A DNA stretch of 43,651 nt from assembly GCA_000517565.1 (NCBI GenBank), contig CP007051.1, forward strand, positions 1,488,850 to 1,532,500, given 5' to 3'. Of the stretch, positions 35,557 through 41,805 are shown one piece after another. Every line of letters starts with the position of its first letter. The stretch's first letter is position 1. The translations under genes were made by a program, and so were the position numbers. The DNA is from Desulfurella acetivorans A63 (GTDB lineage Bacteria > Campylobacterota_A > Desulfurellia > Desulfurellales > Desulfurellaceae). The notes below the pieces were generated by a model. It was not told where the DNA came from and did no database searches. It worked only from the letters and a program-made list of their open reading frames with translations.

Positions 35557-36249
35557 CTATTTTGTAATGCTTTTTATAAATTTTTCAAAATCACTTATAC
35601 CTTTTTGAATTTCTATGGCTGCTTGAGTACCTATTATGACACCATCTGCAATTTTAGAAGCTTCTTTTATATCATTTGCGTTTCTTATACCAAAACCTAA
35701 ATACACTTTAGCCTGTTTCCTGCAATAGTTAATTTTTTCAATAGTTTGACTCTCAAGTGAGAAACTACCGCCTGTTATACCTCTTTTTGAAATAAAATAA
35801 ATAAAATCCTTAGTATTTTTAAAAGCCAAATCTAGATCTTTTTTTCTGCTTTCTGGTGTTGCAAATTTTATAATATTACAATCAAGCTGTTTTTCGAAAT
35901 TAATAGCTTCTCTAACAGGCAAATCAGCTAAAATAATTCCATTTAAAATTTTATTATAGTTTTTGAGTTCATCTTTTAAGCTATAGGCTATATTTGCATA
36001 AGTCATCATATATAGCCTTTTCTTAAAAAGCTTTTTTGCCTCAAAGAGACTTTCAAAAAAGTCTTGCGTGTCGTATTTTGAGAGACATTCGAATGCAGCT
36101 TTTTCCAAAATTTCACCATCTGCTATTGGATCAGAAAATGGTATACCTATTTCTAAAAAATCAACATCCAGATTATTACAAATTTCAACTGCTTCCAAAA
36201 ACATACTTTTTTTTGGATAATTAGAAACCAAATATATACCTACATTCAT
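35557..36249 (-). CDS. trpA: tryptophan synthase alpha chain
   Basis: Cleaves indole-3-glycerol phosphate to indole, passed through a tunnel to TrpB; 230 residues. [14 protein letters not shown] near 37-50 holds the catalytic Glu, ILADLP near 105-110 the catalytic Asp, and [10 protein letters not shown] the phosphate loop. At 230 residues it is shorter than the common 250-270, mainly at the N-terminus. It is the last gene of the trp operon and overlaps trpB by four bases. It contains no Trp. Confidence 0.94.
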
Positions 36250-37406
36250 TGTTGTACCGCCTTTATAATATCTAAATCTTTATCTCCCCTTCCAGAAAGG
36301 TTTATTATAATTATTTTGTTTTTAAATTTTTCCTTATTTGCCAAAACGTAACCCAAAGCATGTGAACTCTCAAGCGCAGGTATAATACCTTCAAGTTTTG
36401 ATAAAGCAAAAAAACCTTCCAGTGCCTGATTGTCAAACACATAATCGTAAATTACACGTTTTGTGTCTTTTAGATAACTATGCATAGGTCCAACGCCTGG
36501 ATAATCCAGACCTGCAGATATTGAGTGTACTGAAGCAACATTTGCATTTTTTTGAAGTAAATAACTTAATGCACCATGCAAAATCCCTTTTGTACCTAAA
36601 CTTAAAGTTGCAGAGTGATCACCCAAATTTACCGATCTGCCACCTGCTTCAATACCATATAATTCTACATTATCTTTTAAAAAAGCGCTAAAAATACCGT
36701 ATGCATTGCTGCCACCCCCTACGCATGCAACTATAACATCGCAAAGTCTATTTTCATATTGTTTTATCTGTCTTTTTGCTTCTTTACCGATAATTGACTG
36801 AAAATCACCTACAATTGTTGGAAAAGGATGTGGTCCAACCACGCTTCCAAGTAAATAATGTGTGGTTTTAACATTTGTAACCCAATCCCTCAAAGCTTCG
36901 TTTATAGCGCTTTTTAATGTTCCTCCAGATTTCTCCACACTAATCACGCTAGCACCTAAGATTTTCATCTTATCTACATTAATGCTTTGGCGCTCAACAT
37001 CTGTCTTTCCCATATATACAACACATTCTAAGCCCAATAAAGCACATACTGTAGCTGTAGCCACACCATGCTGACCTGCACCTGTTTCTGCTATGATTCT
37101 GTTTTTGCCCATAAACTTTGCCAAAAAACCTTGAGCTAAAGTATTGTTTATCTTGTGAGCTCCTGTGTGTGCCAAATCTTCCCTTTTTAGATAAACTTTA
37201 GCACCTACATAATCGCTAAAATTTTTTGCAAAATACAGTGGTGTAGGTCTTCCAACATAAGTTTTCAGCATATCATTTAGCTGTTTTTGAGCTTTTTTGT
37301 CTTTTTTAAAGGCAATATAGCCTTCTTCTAACTCATCTAAAGCCGGAATAAGCGTCTCTGGCACAAATTGCCCGCCAAACTCGCCAAAATAGCGTTTTAG
37401 TTTCAT
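36246..37406 (-). CDS. trpB: tryptophan synthase beta chain
   Basis: PLP enzyme of 386 residues that joins indole and serine to make tryptophan. [17 protein letters not shown] near 76-92 contains the PLP lysine, the TrpB1 signature. [13 protein letters not shown] and [10 protein letters not shown] bind substrate and phosphate. The length is normal, and the start overlaps trpF by four bases. Only one Trp is present. Confidence 0.97.
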
Positions 37407-37975
37407 TTTATTCTCCTTAAGTTTTCCATAAAGTTTTTCATTTTGCCATGATCTTTTTTGCCAGGGTAAGCTTCGATTGAGCTTACCAAATCAACGCCGT
37501 AGGGTTTATAGCGTGCTATCTCAAATATATTATCTTCGCTTATACCACCTGCTACAAAAGCCCTGCTTAAATCATTGCAATCTTCGAGAATCTTCCAGTT
37601 AAACCTTTGAGCACTACCGCCAATCTGTGGGGTTTTGCTATCAAGCAAGATAAGACCATCGCTTAATTTTTGTGGCAATACATCATCAATTCTATAGACC
37701 CTGATGGTATTTTGAATATTAAAGTCATTGTAGACTTGAGCGTATCTTAATCCGCAATAGTTCATTATTGATACAATTTCTTCTTCACTTTCTTCTACAA
37801 ATACACCAACACTGTTTGTCTGTTTTGGTATTTTCTGGATTATTTCTTTTACATCCTGAGCTTTTATATAACGCGGGCTTTTTTTATAAAACACAAAACC
37901 TATAAAATCTACACCTAAATCTAAACTGGCTAACACATCTTCTAAATTTGTCATGCCGCAAAATTTTACATGCAT
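37403..37975 (-). CDS. trpF: phosphoribosylanthranilate isomerase
   Basis: TIM-barrel isomerase of 190 residues acting between TrpD and Trp[12 protein letters not shown] at 4-14 carries the catalytic Cys, and the catalytic Asp is in [28 protein letters not shown] binds the phosphate. It is a free-standing gene, not fused to trpC, and overlaps trpC by ten bases. Confidence 0.95.
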
Positions 37976-38682
37976 AAAAGCTCCTTAAAAGTAGATTCAA
38001 CATCATTTGATTTTAAAAGTGCCTCACCTATTAAAAATACATTAGTGTATGGTAAAAACTCCTCTATATCATTTCTATTTCTTACACCACTTTCTGCTAT
38101 TTTAATTTTAGCATCAATTTTACTTATAAGCTTTTTGGCTAAATTTTTATCTATCTTTAGCGTATCAAGGTCTCTTGTATTTACGCCTACAATTGTTGCA
38201 TCGAAATCTATTTTATCTAGATCATTTTCTGTATGAAGCTCAATTAAAGCACTTAAGCCCAAAAAGCATGCATAATCATAGAGCTTTCTTAGTTTGTCTT
38301 TTTCGAGTGCTCTTACAATAAGCAAGATAATATCTGCACCGCTATTGTATGCCCAATCAATTTGTTTTTTGTCAATTATAAAATCTTTACACAAAATTGG
38401 CAGGTTTGTCTTTCTTGATATTTCATGCAAAAACTCAAAGCTACCCCCAAAATATTTATTATCTGTAAGCACACTTATTGCTTTTGCATACTTTGAATAA
38501 ATTTCAACGATATTTTTTTGTAAGATAAAATTACCATAAGAAGGAGATTTTGACTTGATTTCTGCAATGATATTTATTTTATCATTAAAATTTGGTTTCA
38601 AAACAGGCTTTGTCCTCTTATAAGGGCAGACTTTCATAGATTGAACTTCAAGGACTTTATCAGCTAAAATCTGCTCAATCAT
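37966..38682 (-). CDS. trpC: indole-3-glycerol-phosphate synthase
   Basis: TIM-barrel enzyme of 238 residues closing the indole ring. EIKSKSPSYG near 41-50 holds the catalytic Lys, CKDFIID a second Lys, and LIELHTENDL and VGVNTRDLDT are later motifs. It lacks part of the N-terminal extension of longer homologues (about 255). It overlaps trpD by eight bases and trpF by ten. Confidence 0.95.
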   Translation of the reverse strand: MIEQILADKVLEVQSMKVCPYKRTKPVLKPNFNDKINIIAEIKSKSPSYGNFILQKNIVEIYSKYAKAISVLTDNKYFGGSFEFLHEISRKTNLPILCKDFIIDKKQIDWAYNSGADIILLIVRALEKDKLRKLYDYACFLGLSALIELHTENDLDKIDFDATIVGVNTRDLDTLKIDKNLAKKLISKIDAKIKIAESGVRNRNDIEEFLPYTNVFLIGEALLKSNDVESTFKELLCM

Positions 38683-39622
38683 TTGTTATCTCCATCAGTT
38701 TATCGTAAGCCTTTCTATTTTTAATCGCTTCTTTTGCAAGCAAAAAGCCCTGTTTTAAATTATCTTCAACACCAGCTACAAGATATGCAAAAGCACAATT
38801 TATTGCTATGGCATCTGATAAAACATCGTGTTCTCCCAAAAAAACCTCTTTGAGAATTTTTGCATTTGTTTTTGCATCAAACCCTTTAACTGAATCTTTT
38901 GGTGCATATATTGAAAACTCTCTTGGGTCAAATTCAAATTTTTTAATATATGGGCCTTTCTTTTGATAACACAATGTAACATCCGAAAGGCTCACTTCAT
39001 CCATATCGGAAGCTACAAGAACTACATTTTGAAAATCCAAAATATCAACAGCCTCCAGGTATACCGGTAAATATTCTTTACTAAAAACACCTATCATTTT
39101 GTAAGCAGGGTTTATTGGGTTGCACAAAGGACCTACAAGGTTAAAAATCGTTCGCTTTCCGATCTTTTTTCTAATGGGCATAATTGGTTTTAACTTTGGA
39201 TGCCAATGCGGAGCAAACAAAAAGGCAAAATTTTTCTTTTCAAGGTTTTCAATTATTTCTTCCTTTTCTTGCTCAATCTTTACCCCAAGCGCTTCAAGAA
39301 TATCTGCTGCACCAGATAAAGATGACACGGCTTTATTACCATGTTTTGCAACTTTTACATGTAAACTGCAGACAATAGAAGCTGCTGTGGAAATATTAAA
39401 ACTATTTGAATTATCTCCACCTGTTCCAACAATATCTATGCAATTACCACTGTAGTCGATCAACCGAGCATTTTTTAACATAGCTTTTGCAAGCGCAGCA
39501 ACACAAGCTGGATCTTCTTTTTGCTGGCTCATTTCAATAAGTGAGTTTTCAATGTCTTGTTCGCTTAACTTACCAGAAAGCATTGCATCAAAAAAATCTA
39601 AAGATTCGCTAAAACTTTTCAT
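38675..39622 (-). CDS. trpD: anthranilate phosphoribosyltransferase
   Basis: Transfers phosphoribose from PRPP to anthranilate; 315 residues. GTGGDNSNSFNIST near 66-79 is the PRPP loop, KHGNKAVSS near 93-101 binds substrate, and ASDMDEVSLSD coordinates magnesium. It is not fused to trpG, which precedes it with a 14-base overlap. Confidence 0.96.
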   Translation of the reverse strand: MKSFSESLDFFDAMLSGKLSEQDIENSLIEMSQQKEDPACVAALAKAMLKNARLIDYSGNCIDIVGTGGDNSNSFNISTAASIVCSLHVKVAKHGNKAVSSLSGAADILEALGVKIEQEKEEIIENLEKKNFAFLFAPHWHPKLKPIMPIRKKIGKRTIFNLVGPLCNPINPAYKMIGVFSKEYLPVYLEAVDILDFQNVVLVASDMDEVSLSDVTLCYQKKGPYIKKFEFDPREFSIYAPKDSVKGFDAKTNAKILKEVFLGEHDVLSDAIAINCAFAYLVAGVEDNLKQGFLLAKEAIKNRKAYDKLMEITND

Positions 39623-40184
39623 GGCACAACCTCACAAAATTTTCTATAAAAGTCAATCCATCTTTTGTTTGATAGGATTCTGGGTGAAACTGCAAGCCAT
39701 AAAGCCCAATATCTTTGTTTTCAATTGCCATAATCTCATTATCACTTGAAGATACAGCGCAAACTTCAAAATCATTGTATACATTATCAACAACTAAAGA
39801 ATGGTATCTCACCCCCAAAAAAGGTTGACTGATGTTTTTAAACAAAATACTATCACTAATGGGAATTATCCTATCTACTTTGCCATGCATGATTGTTTTT
39901 GCTTTTCTTATTGTTTTTCCATATACATAGCAAATAGACTGCATACCAAGACATATACCTAAAATTGGCAACTTTGATCTAAAATATTCTATAGCATCAA
40001 GACTTAATAAGGCGTTTTTTGGATGAGAAGGACCAGGGGAAATCACTATGCCTTTTAGATTTTTAACATTTTTTATGTTATCAATTTTGGCATTGTTTAA
40101 AATAACTTCAACATCATCAAAATGCTTAAGGTAATCGTACAAATTGTATGTAAATGAATCAAAATTATCAATCAAAACTATCAT
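39609..40184 (-). CDS. trpG: anthranilate synthase glutamine amidotransferase subunit
   Basis: Class I amidotransferase of 191 residues supplying ammonia to TrpE. IDNFDSFTYNL opens the fold. Catalytic Cys lies in LGICLGMQS near 76-84, and His and Glu in QFHPES near 168-173. It could also serve para-aminobenzoate synthase, as in some bacteria. The start overlaps trpE by 17 bases. It contains no Trp. Confidence 0.95.
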   Translation of the reverse strand: MIVLIDNFDSFTYNLYDYLKHFDDVEVILNNAKIDNIKNVKNLKGIVISPGPSHPKNALLSLDAIEYFRSKLPILGICLGMQSICYVYGKTIRKAKTIMHGKVDRIIPISDSILFKNISQPFLGVRYHSLVVDNVYNDFEVCAVSSSDNEIMAIENKDIGLYGLQFHPESYQTKDGLTFIENFVRLCHEKF

Positions 40185-41577
40185 TTATACCTCCTGCTTG
40201 AAGCATGGCACCCAGTTTTGATAAAACCTCTTTATACTCATTTTCTGCAATACTATCATACACAATCCCAGCACCTGCTTGAAATCTTGCCTTATCATTT
40301 TCAAAAAATGCAGTTCTTATGGTTATTGCCATATCCATATTACCACTTAGACCTATATATCCAACGCATCCTGCATAAAATCCTCTGCATTGCTTTTCTG
40401 TTTCTTCAATCAATTCTATTGCTCTAACTTTTGGAGCACCACTTACAGTGCCAGCTGGAAATGTATTTGTAAGGCAGTCAATTAAATCAAATGAATCATC
40501 TATTTGTCCTTCAACTTCAGAAACAAGATGCATGACATGAGAATAATGCTCTATTTGTCTAAATGACTTGACTTTAACACTTAACGGCTTGCATACGCGC
40601 GAGAGATCGTTTCTAGCAAGATCAAGTAGCATTAAATGCTCTGCATTTTCTTTTTCATCTTTTAATAAATCTTCTTCAAGCATGCGCGTTTCTTCTAAAG
40701 TTTTTGCAATTGGTCTTGTACCTGCAATGGGTTTAATTGTAGCTATATTTTTTCTAACGCTAATGTGTACTTCTGGACTTGAGCCTACAACATAGTTTGA
40801 AGCATCTTTTATAAAAAACATATATGGTGATGGGTTAAATTTTCTTAGGTTTCTATAAAACTCAAATGGATTTAAGCCAGCCACTTCAATATAGTCACTT
40901 AATACCACCTGAATTACTTCACCTTCTTCAATCTGTTTTTTCAAAAAGTTCACCTTTTCTATAAAATCTTTCTTTGGTATTTTTCTTATTATTTTTGGAC
41001 TGGATAAGTTATTTTTACTTTCGCAACTTAATAGCTCTTCTTTGAATAACAAAAGATCCTGATGTGCTTTTTGATATGCATCAGGATCTTTTGTTGTTTG
41101 CGATTTTGCAAGGTAGAGTTTATTTGTATAGTTATCGTAAACCAAAAACTTATCCACAAAATAAAATACCCCAAGGACATCTGGTAGATATTTAAGTTTT
41201 TCTCGTAAAATTCCGCATTCATTCACAAACTCAAAGCTTAAAAGTGCTATAAACCCACCAGAAAAATTACCATATTCTTCAAAGGATGCCGATTGATTTT
41301 TCTTTAAAAATTCTTTAATAAAGCCCAAATCTTGTCGCGTGCCTTCTAATTGGCCGTTTTTGTCTAAAACAAACTTTTTTACATTAAAAGCCAAAAAGGA
41401 AAACCTACTGTAAATCTTTTTTTGATTGGCACTTTCAAGCAACAAACAATTTTCTTTATCCAGTAAGCTTCTAAGTAAACTAACGGGTGTGTCTAAATCA
41501 CCATCAATTTCCATATACACTGGTATTCTATCGTAGACTTTTGACAAATCTACAAACTCACTGTAAGTTGGATACAT
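40168..41577 (-). CDS. trpE: anthranilate synthase component I
   Basis: Converts chorismate to anthranilate with TrpG; 469 residues. LLLESANQKKIYSRFSF near 46-62 is the LLES...S tryptophan feedback site, so the enzyme is likely inhibited by Trp. GSSPEVHISV, PIAGTRPIAKT, LVSEVEGQI and FPAGTVSGAPK are chorismate-binding motifs. AAGGAGGT (41581-41588) fixes the ATG. It lies directly after two terminators, which control the whole seven-gene operon. It contains no Trp, so its own synthesis does not depend on charged tRNA-Trp. Confidence 0.97.
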   Translation of the reverse strand: MYPTYSEFVDLSKVYDRIPVYMEIDGDLDTPVSLLRSLLDKENCLLLESANQKKIYSRFSFLAFNVKKFVLDKNGQLEGTRQDLGFIKEFLKKNQSASFEEYGNFSGGFIALLSFEFVNECGILREKLKYLPDVLGVFYFVDKFLVYDNYTNKLYLAKSQTTKDPDAYQKAHQDLLLFKEELLSCESKNNLSSPKIIRKIPKKDFIEKVNFLKKQIEEGEVIQVVLSDYIEVAGLNPFEFYRNLRKFNPSPYMFFIKDASNYVVGSSPEVHISVRKNIATIKPIAGTRPIAKTLEETRMLEEDLLKDEKENAEHLMLLDLARNDLSRVCKPLSVKVKSFRQIEHYSHVMHLVSEVEGQIDDSFDLIDCLTNTFPAGTVSGAPKVRAIELIEETEKQCRGFYAGCVGYIGLSGNMDMAITIRTAFFENDKARFQAGAGIVYDSIAENEYKEVLSKLGAMLQAGGINDSFD

Positions 41578-41593
41578 TTAACCTCCTTAAAAC

Positions 41594-41631
41594 AAAAAAG
41601 CCGCTTAAACCATCTAAGGCTTAAGCGGCTT
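41594..41631 (-). terminator. second trp leader terminator (arms 5 and 6)
   Basis: On the minus strand a perfect 11-bp stem AAGCCGCTTAA / TTAAGCGGCTT with a 12-base loop is followed by a U-run interrupted once by G. It ends six bases before the trpE ribosome-binding site. Its 5' arm can instead pair with the 3' arm of the first terminator (arm 4): 41638-41648 with 41621-41631, 11 bp, loop of six U. Confidence 0.85.
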
Positions 41632-41688
41632 AAAAAAAAGCCGCTTAAAGCACTTACTTGGGCTATCCCCAAGTGCGCTTTAAGCGGC
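41632..41688 (-). terminator. first trp attenuator terminator (arms 3 and 4)
   Basis: On the minus strand the arms GCCGCTTAAAGC (41677-41688) and GCTTTAAGCGGC (41640-41651) form a perfect 12-bp stem with further inner pairing (ACTTGGG/CCCAAGT), followed by eight U at 41632-41639. It is an intrinsic terminator in the position expected for trp attenuation. The inner sequence GGGATAGCC (41661-41669) is shared with the antiterminator. Confidence 0.92.
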
Positions 41689-41723
41689 ACTAAAATTTAA
41701 AGGGATAGCCTTTTAGCTACCCC
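41661..41723 (-). promoter_or_regulatory. trp attenuator switch: 1:2 pause hairpin versus 2:3 antiterminator
   Basis: On the minus strand segment 1 GGGGTAGC (41716-41723) overlaps the end of the leader peptide codons and pairs with segment 2 GGCTATCCC (41702-41710), with one G-U. Segment 2 also pairs perfectly (9 bp) with segment 3 GGGATAGCC (41661-41669) inside the terminator. A ribosome stalled at the Trp codons would mask segment 1, allow 2:3 and prevent the 3:4 terminator. A ribosome reaching the stop codon (41713-41715) would cover segment 2 and allow termination. Confidence 0.85.
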
Positions 41724-41769
41724 ACCACCATATATTTTTTAATGTTGAAATCTTAGCCAATACTTTCAT
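41713..41769 (-). CDS. trpL: trp operon leader peptide
   Basis: An 18-residue open frame reads MKVLAKISTLKNIWWWGS, with three consecutive TGG codons (41722-41730) just before the stop. Its size, position and Trp run fit the ribosome-sensing peptides of attenuated trp operons. No Shine-Dalgarno sequence is visible; the predicted transcript starts within a few bases of the ATG, so translation is probably leaderless. The codons for the last residues form segment 1 of the RNA switch. It has no expected function other than ribosome stalling when charged tRNA-Trp is scarce. Confidence 0.88.
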   Translation of the reverse strand: MKVLAKISTLKNIWWWGS

Positions 41770-41777
41770 ACATTTGT

Positions 41778-41805
41778 AATGTATCATAAATATTTCAAAA
41801 GTCAA
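41778..41805 (-). promoter_or_regulatory. trp operon promoter
   Basis: On the minus strand TTGACT (41800-41805) and TACATT (41778-41783) are 16 bases apart, with TGA before the -10 as an extended element. The -35 box overlaps the end of the AI-2E-family gene. The start would be at about 41770-41772, one to three bases before the trpL ATG. Confidence 0.65.

Follow-up and report, generated by a model that had tools for sequence, protein, structure and literature searches.

The window analysed here, a stretch of 43,651 nucleotides from Desulfurella acetivorans A63, contains the tryptophan operon from trpE to trpA, encoded on the minus strand from 41577 to 35557 and recognised with Pfam. The genome is 1.82 Mb in size and consists of two contigs; its chromosome of 1,816,487 bases has 31.7% G+C. 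Upstream of trpE lies a leader with six pairing arms, whose features are listed below in the direction of transcription.

41778..41805, minus strand: sigma-70-like promoter, TTGACT-16-TACATT, with an extended -10 (TG); box and spacing are kept in relatives
41713..41769, minus strand: leader peptide ORF, MKVLAKISTLKNIWWWGS and stop, predicted to be near-leaderless, without Shine-Dalgarno
41722..41730, minus strand: three tandem Trp codons (the sensor); WWW is conserved in 18/18 relatives
41716..41723, minus strand: segment 1, GGGGUAGC, which pairs with segment 2
41702..41710, minus strand: segment 2, GGCUAUCCC, whose partner is either segment 1 or a part of the T1 loop
41673..41690, minus strand: GUGCCGCUUAAAGCGCAC, hairpin that arm 3 forms with itself within the 2:3 antiterminator
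41661..41670, minus strand: GGGGAUAGCC, partner of segment 2 within the T1 loop
41640..41688, minus strand: terminator T1 (3:4), -35.1 kcal/mol, with a U8 tract at 41639-41632
41638..41656, minus strand: arm 4 (extended), whose partner is either arm 3 or arm 5
41615..41656, minus strand: alternative hairpin 4:5, the predicted T2 antiterminator, 17 bp with two bulged U's and a 6-nt U loop, -22.2 kcal/mol
41598..41631, minus strand: terminator T2 (5:6), 14 bp with a 6-nt loop, -23.3 kcal/mol, with a U-rich tail at 41597-41589
41582..41588, minus strand: Shine-Dalgarno AAGGAGG of trpE
35557..41577, minus strand: putatively leader-controlled trpE-trpG-trpD-trpC-trpF-trpB-trpA operon (Pfam)

Taken by itself, the match of the window promoter to the consensus is no better than in shuffled sequences. 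A TTGAC(A/T) box together with a distance of 6-10 nt between the -10 element and the leader ATG is present in all 18 relatives whose leaders carry both terminators. The leader ORF lacks a Shine-Dalgarno sequence in the window and in most of these relatives. Because of this mostly absent Shine-Dalgarno and the short distance from the predicted -10 box, the trp mRNA probably begins at the leader AUG or a few bases from it, which would make trpL leaderless. A second ATG is located 4 bases 5' of the leader start and opens a small frame (MYESIG and stop, 41753-41773, minus strand) that runs across the leader ORF in a different reading frame; it has a counterpart in G002 and is absent from G001, the two being sister species of the window organism.

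The arms of the leader permit a chain of mutually exclusive pairings. Six arms forming 1:2, 2:3, 3:4 and 5:6 had been described in an earlier note on this DNA, and every coordinate given there proved correct. In the 2:3 antiterminator, segment 2 pairs with a part of the T1 loop, and arm 3 is enclosed and folds upon itself (41690-41673). The T2 stem (41631-41598) is followed by UUUUGUUUU. The two terminators are connected through arm 4: positions 41648-41638 (UUAAGCGGCUU) are perfectly complementary to 41631-41621 (AAGCCGCUUAA), with six U's in the loop between them. The note had taken this for the whole 4:5 hairpin of 11 bp; the match stands as its core, and the true extent is 17 bp with two bulged U's (UAAG-U-GCUU-U-AAGCGGCUU with AAGCCGCUUAAGCCUUA, 41656-41615). 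Hairpin 5:6, given as 11 bp with a 12-base loop, had to be revised to 14 bp with a 6-nt loop, as GCC/GGU also pair. Nor is 4:5 clearly the tighter of the two hairpins, as had been stated: at 37 C the best structures containing 4:5 and 5:6 are near-isoenergetic, with -28.0 and -28.6 kcal/mol, respectively, and at 55 C the 4:5 structure is ahead by 0.9 kcal/mol. Since the two are nearly equal in energy, the switch would have to rest on the order of synthesis and not on stability. That the arms exist, pair exclusively and are conserved can be read from the sequences themselves; the order of folding, the energies and the barriers are what we infer from model calculations.

Such pairing is rarely matched by chance. 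The minimum free energy of the leader has a z-score of -7.8 against shuffles. The 4:5 duplex (-19.6 kcal/mol) was equalled by 82 of 20,000 pairs drawn at random from the arms of terminators in this genome (12 of 3906 when the test was made on 400 kb) and by one of 1000 shuffles of arm 5. A scan of the 1,816,487-base chromosome, with 12,512 bases masked, for strong hairpins with U-tracts yielded 88 terminators outside long ORFs, among which the trp leader is the sole tandem pair; four other tandem hits are all located inside ORFs. An origin of T1 and T2 as repeats or uptake sequences was rejected, there being no further intergenic tandem terminator on the chromosome.

For comparison, 25 genomes of the phylum were searched; a trpE match was present in 20 and the leader was readable in 19. 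The WWW leader ORF, 2:3, T1, T2 and 4:5 precede trpE in 18 of the 19 readable leaders, distributed over families f1, f2 and f3. The complementarity of arms 4 and 5 that the earlier note had reported for the window thus recurs in every double-terminator leader, including genera with T2 unlike T1, and the hairpin has predicted energies from -14.6 to -32 kcal/mol. In each of the 18, a strong T2 stem runs straight into a U-tract of 5-7. One of these genomes, G005, from a sister family in the same order as the window genome, was identified as Hippea maritima (PMC3156395), a thermophile with best growth at 52-54 C. The remaining readable leader, that of G024 (L032, family f4, same class), encodes a Trp leader peptide FGWWFSIMS and has a single terminator; either T2 arose after the f4 split or G024 has lost it.

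Upstream of distant TrpE genes, no clear second Trp-codon leader with two coupled terminators was seen among the matches listed, and a search of viral contigs gave no match. In an unrelated bacterium, the Spirochaetes MAG ADurb.Bin218 (L037, around 1355-1460), a leader peptide, MRNMILNKFWWWQALYF and stop, with strong hairpins lies ahead of trpE, a possible independent WWW attenuator. Near trp loci of relatives, Rfam detects a Moco riboswitch (L017, 3307-3427, 81.6 bits) and a fluoride riboswitch (L027, 1090-1153, 46.2 bits).

We consider it quite likely that the window leader is a ribosome-mediated trp attenuator in which two tandem intrinsic terminators are coupled by a shared arm. Under Trp starvation, the ribosome would stall on UGG-UGG-UGG and cover segment 1, so that 2:3 would form, keeping arm 3 in a closed loop and arm 4 free. 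Free arm 4 would take arm 5 as soon as it emerges, ahead of the synthesis of arm 6; both T1 and T2 would fail and trpEGDCFBA would be transcribed. With charged tRNA-Trp, the ribosome would reach the stop codon and cover segment 2, and 3:4 would form; if the leader is not translated at all, 1:2 would lead to 3:4 as well. Once 3:4 is formed, arm 4 would be consumed and arm 5 left with arm 6 only, and polymerases that have escaped T1 would meet T2. The proposal that leak-through meets 5:6 thus appears sound where T1 is folded. As an independent safety net T2 would not serve, as a misfolded T1 that frees arm 4 should let the transcript pass T2 too; T2 would multiply termination solely in transcripts in which T1 has folded and the polymerase has slipped past. 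Its expected effect would be to lower the repressed level and to leave the induced level unchanged. Termination at T1 and T2 in vivo, the response to Trp and the gain in repression are, like this scheme, what we infer from the leader and its models. It also seems probable that the leaders of the clade share a coupled double attenuator, in which one Trp-sensing ribosome acts through the chain 1:2, 2:3, 3:4, 4:5, 5:6 and repression is multiplied without loss of induction.

Stalled and stop-codon ribosomes were placed on the assumption that the edge of the ribosome footprint lies 13 nt from the A site. Segment 1 is then hidden under the stalled ribosome and segment 2 stays accessible, whereas a ribosome that has reached the stop codon hides segment 2. 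When arm 1 is masked, 2:3 is predicted to precede arm 4 in 18/18 leaders, and the barrier from it to 3:4 amounts to 11-30 kcal/mol. For a ribosome at the stop codon, 3:4 is reached at a cost of 2-12 kcal/mol, the upper values being those of the G012/G017/G010 and G011/G014 groups. The relay that the earlier note had proposed for starvation gains support as a prediction, since 4:5 is calculated to form ahead of arm 6 once arm 4 is free, and in most species kinetics would then protect it. Under an assumed rate constant of 2e5 per s, 5:6 is predicted to need at least 3 s to displace 4:5 at 37 C in 15 of the 18 species. The note had named a 5:6 that stays stable when 3:4 is prevented as evidence against its model; these 15 species speak for the model, and the other three against it. 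The predicted lifetime at 37 C is 0.07-0.14 s in the two sister species of the window organism (G001, G002) and 3 ms in G008, where it rises to 1.7 s at 55 C. In these species, T2 may escape the control by 4:5, and in the window's own genus 4:5 would be only marginally long-lived. In a coarse co-transcriptional simulation, trustworthy for the window leader alone and erratic in other species (for example, T2 on in starved G005, G003, G011 and G010), whose results were set aside, the starved window leader terminated at T1 in 0-4% and at T2 in 0% of cases, and the leader with no ribosome at both in 100%; this held at 37 C as well as at 55 C and across several speeds. A simulated chimera with an unrelated T2 left T2 unfolded even without a ribosome and thus provided no usable control.

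The coupling by 4:5 has to be weighed against a simpler origin: T2 might be a tandem duplicate of T1 that acts as a plain back-up terminator, the 4:5 match being a by-product kept by gene conversion. Had T2 been copied from T1, with arm 5 resembling arm 3 and arm 6 resembling arm 4, then 4:5 and 3:6 would be expected to be equally complementary. This is what the window shows (3:6 -18.7, 4:5 -19.6), and there, as in both sister species, the arms GCCGCUUAA/UUAAGCGGC are common to T1 and T2. Throughout family f1, the two pairings differ little in strength, with 3:6 somewhat stronger in G002 and G001. The arms of T1 and T2 are also similar in G004, G006, G007, G011 and G014; in G006, G014, G011 and G007, 3:6 at least equals 4:5, and duplication or gene conversion could account for 4:5 there. 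In contrast, five Hippea-group species (G012, G017, G010, G005, G003), G015, G008 and family f3 have a T2 that is no simple copy of T1, with a strong 4:5 and a weak 3:6: -26.3 versus -16.9 in G005, -23.2 versus -9.6 in G021, and just -9.6 to -14.3 for 3:6 across f3. When the arm pairings of eight lineage representatives were permuted in all 40,320 assignments, the true assignment was the best for 4:5 (1/40,320; own-lineage mean -22.4, cross -15.5), whereas the 3:6 control ranked at 957/40,320 (own -19.0, cross -16.2). As the specificity of 4:5 far exceeds that of the control, 4:5 appears to be kept beyond the shared ancestry of both hairpins. The covariation of arms that the earlier note had looked to is equivocal: in the five closest Hippea-group species, formal covariation is based on few counts and shows no excess over shuffles (159/500), and yet a single position varies jointly in arms 4/5/6 (U/A/U, U/G/U, C/G/C). 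Moreover, induction would be blocked by a plain second terminator placed behind a regulated one; such a case is reported in the Bc1 riboswitch, whose T2 masks T1 (PMC11218506). Pure duplication as the full explanation was rejected where T2 differs from T1 and could still apply to the window's genus; as an account of the arrangement as a whole we regard it as rather unlikely.

Two further readings deny T2 its place in the relay. Hairpin 5:6 could mainly stabilise the 5' end of the mRNA, or be a processing site or a spacer, with no regulatory role for 4:5. T2 ends about 10 bases 5' of the trpE Shine-Dalgarno, which is left unpaired; the strong stem and U-tract in 18/18 leaders are, however, the hallmark of an intrinsic terminator, and the conservation of 4:5 would be left unexplained, so we give this reading little credence. 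Alternatively, T2 could respond to a second signal (a protein, the Rho/NusA context, temperature or another ligand) and not to the Trp sensor. Tandem attenuators with separate sensors are reported from Salmonella mgtCBR (PMC3641672), and a zinc regulator binds the DNA of the Bc1 dual terminator (PMC11218506). Against this, neither an aptamer nor a second leader ORF is seen between T1 and T2, just 8-17 nt separate the first U-tract and arm 5 in all species, and no Rfam family scores above threshold in the window. A second signal is therefore highly improbable, and the shared-arm relay is the reading that we carry forward.

Two Rfam families were compared with the leader. In the window, Trp_leader (RF00513) reaches 16.4 bits, under its gathering cut-off of 41 bits, and the trpB motif (RF04312) 42.7 bits, under its cut-off of 59 bits; the latter, reported from Firmicutes and Fusobacteria (PMC11109978), gave a weak match in two of the 25 genomes and none above cut-off. 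The leaders have the attributes of trp attenuators, i.e. a short ORF with consecutive Trp codons before trpE (18/18), mutually exclusive 1:2, 2:3 and 3:4, and an intrinsic terminator at 3:4.

Classical attenuation leaks, and an extra terminator normally comes at the cost of induction. If the relay is real, the conflict would be resolved with no new sensor, as the shared arm would open T2 each time T1 is open. The relay would represent a natural chained RNA switch conserved in thermophilic sulfur reducers that form a group of phylum rank, and would offer a simple design rule for synthetic attenuators with low leak. The earlier note knew of no trp leader with such a relay, and we found none in the open-access literature, older subscription papers lying outside the search.

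A similar known system is the trpL of E. coli type, which shares the short ORF with tandem Trp codons, 1:2, 2:3, 3:4 and an intrinsic terminator before trpE. It differs from the present leader, which has a second terminator coupled via 4:5, a 2:3 that uses the T1 loop while arm 3 refolds locally, and an mRNA predicted to be near-leaderless. Leaderless transcription from the leader AUG and Trp-codon attenuation of trpE are found in Sinorhizobium meliloti trpL, for which a single terminator is depicted (PMC7298713). Campylobacter jejuni, by its NCBI lineage a distant campylobacterotal relative, has a TrpL leader peptide 5' of trpE with one Trp codon, and a double terminator is not reported for it; among the epsilonproteobacteria studied, TrpL was reported solely in C. 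jejuni, C. coli and C. doylei (PMC3847290). Some gammaproteobacterial rimP leaders combine two tandem terminators with a predicted antiterminator, but they belong to another operon, the proposed sensor is NusA and the terminator for which an antiterminator is described is the upstream one (PMC2965389). In the c-di-GMP riboswitch Bc1, one sensor lies 5' of two intrinsic terminators 28 bp apart; opening of its T1 leaves T2 folded, and the response is masked by T2, whereas the 4:5 predicted here would unfold T2 whenever T1 is open (PMC11218506). A similar layout is cited for the ermK attenuator of Bacillus, where a single leader peptide that stalls the ribosome precedes two adjacent Rho-independent terminators (Kwak et al. 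1991, cited in PMC4335068). On that layout the resemblance is mechanistic and not one of homology; ermK relies on drug-induced stalling and encodes a resistance methylase, whereas the signal here would be amino-acid starvation. Given this precedent of one sensor with two terminators, the trp relay would be a variant of ribosome-mediated attenuation and not a new kind.
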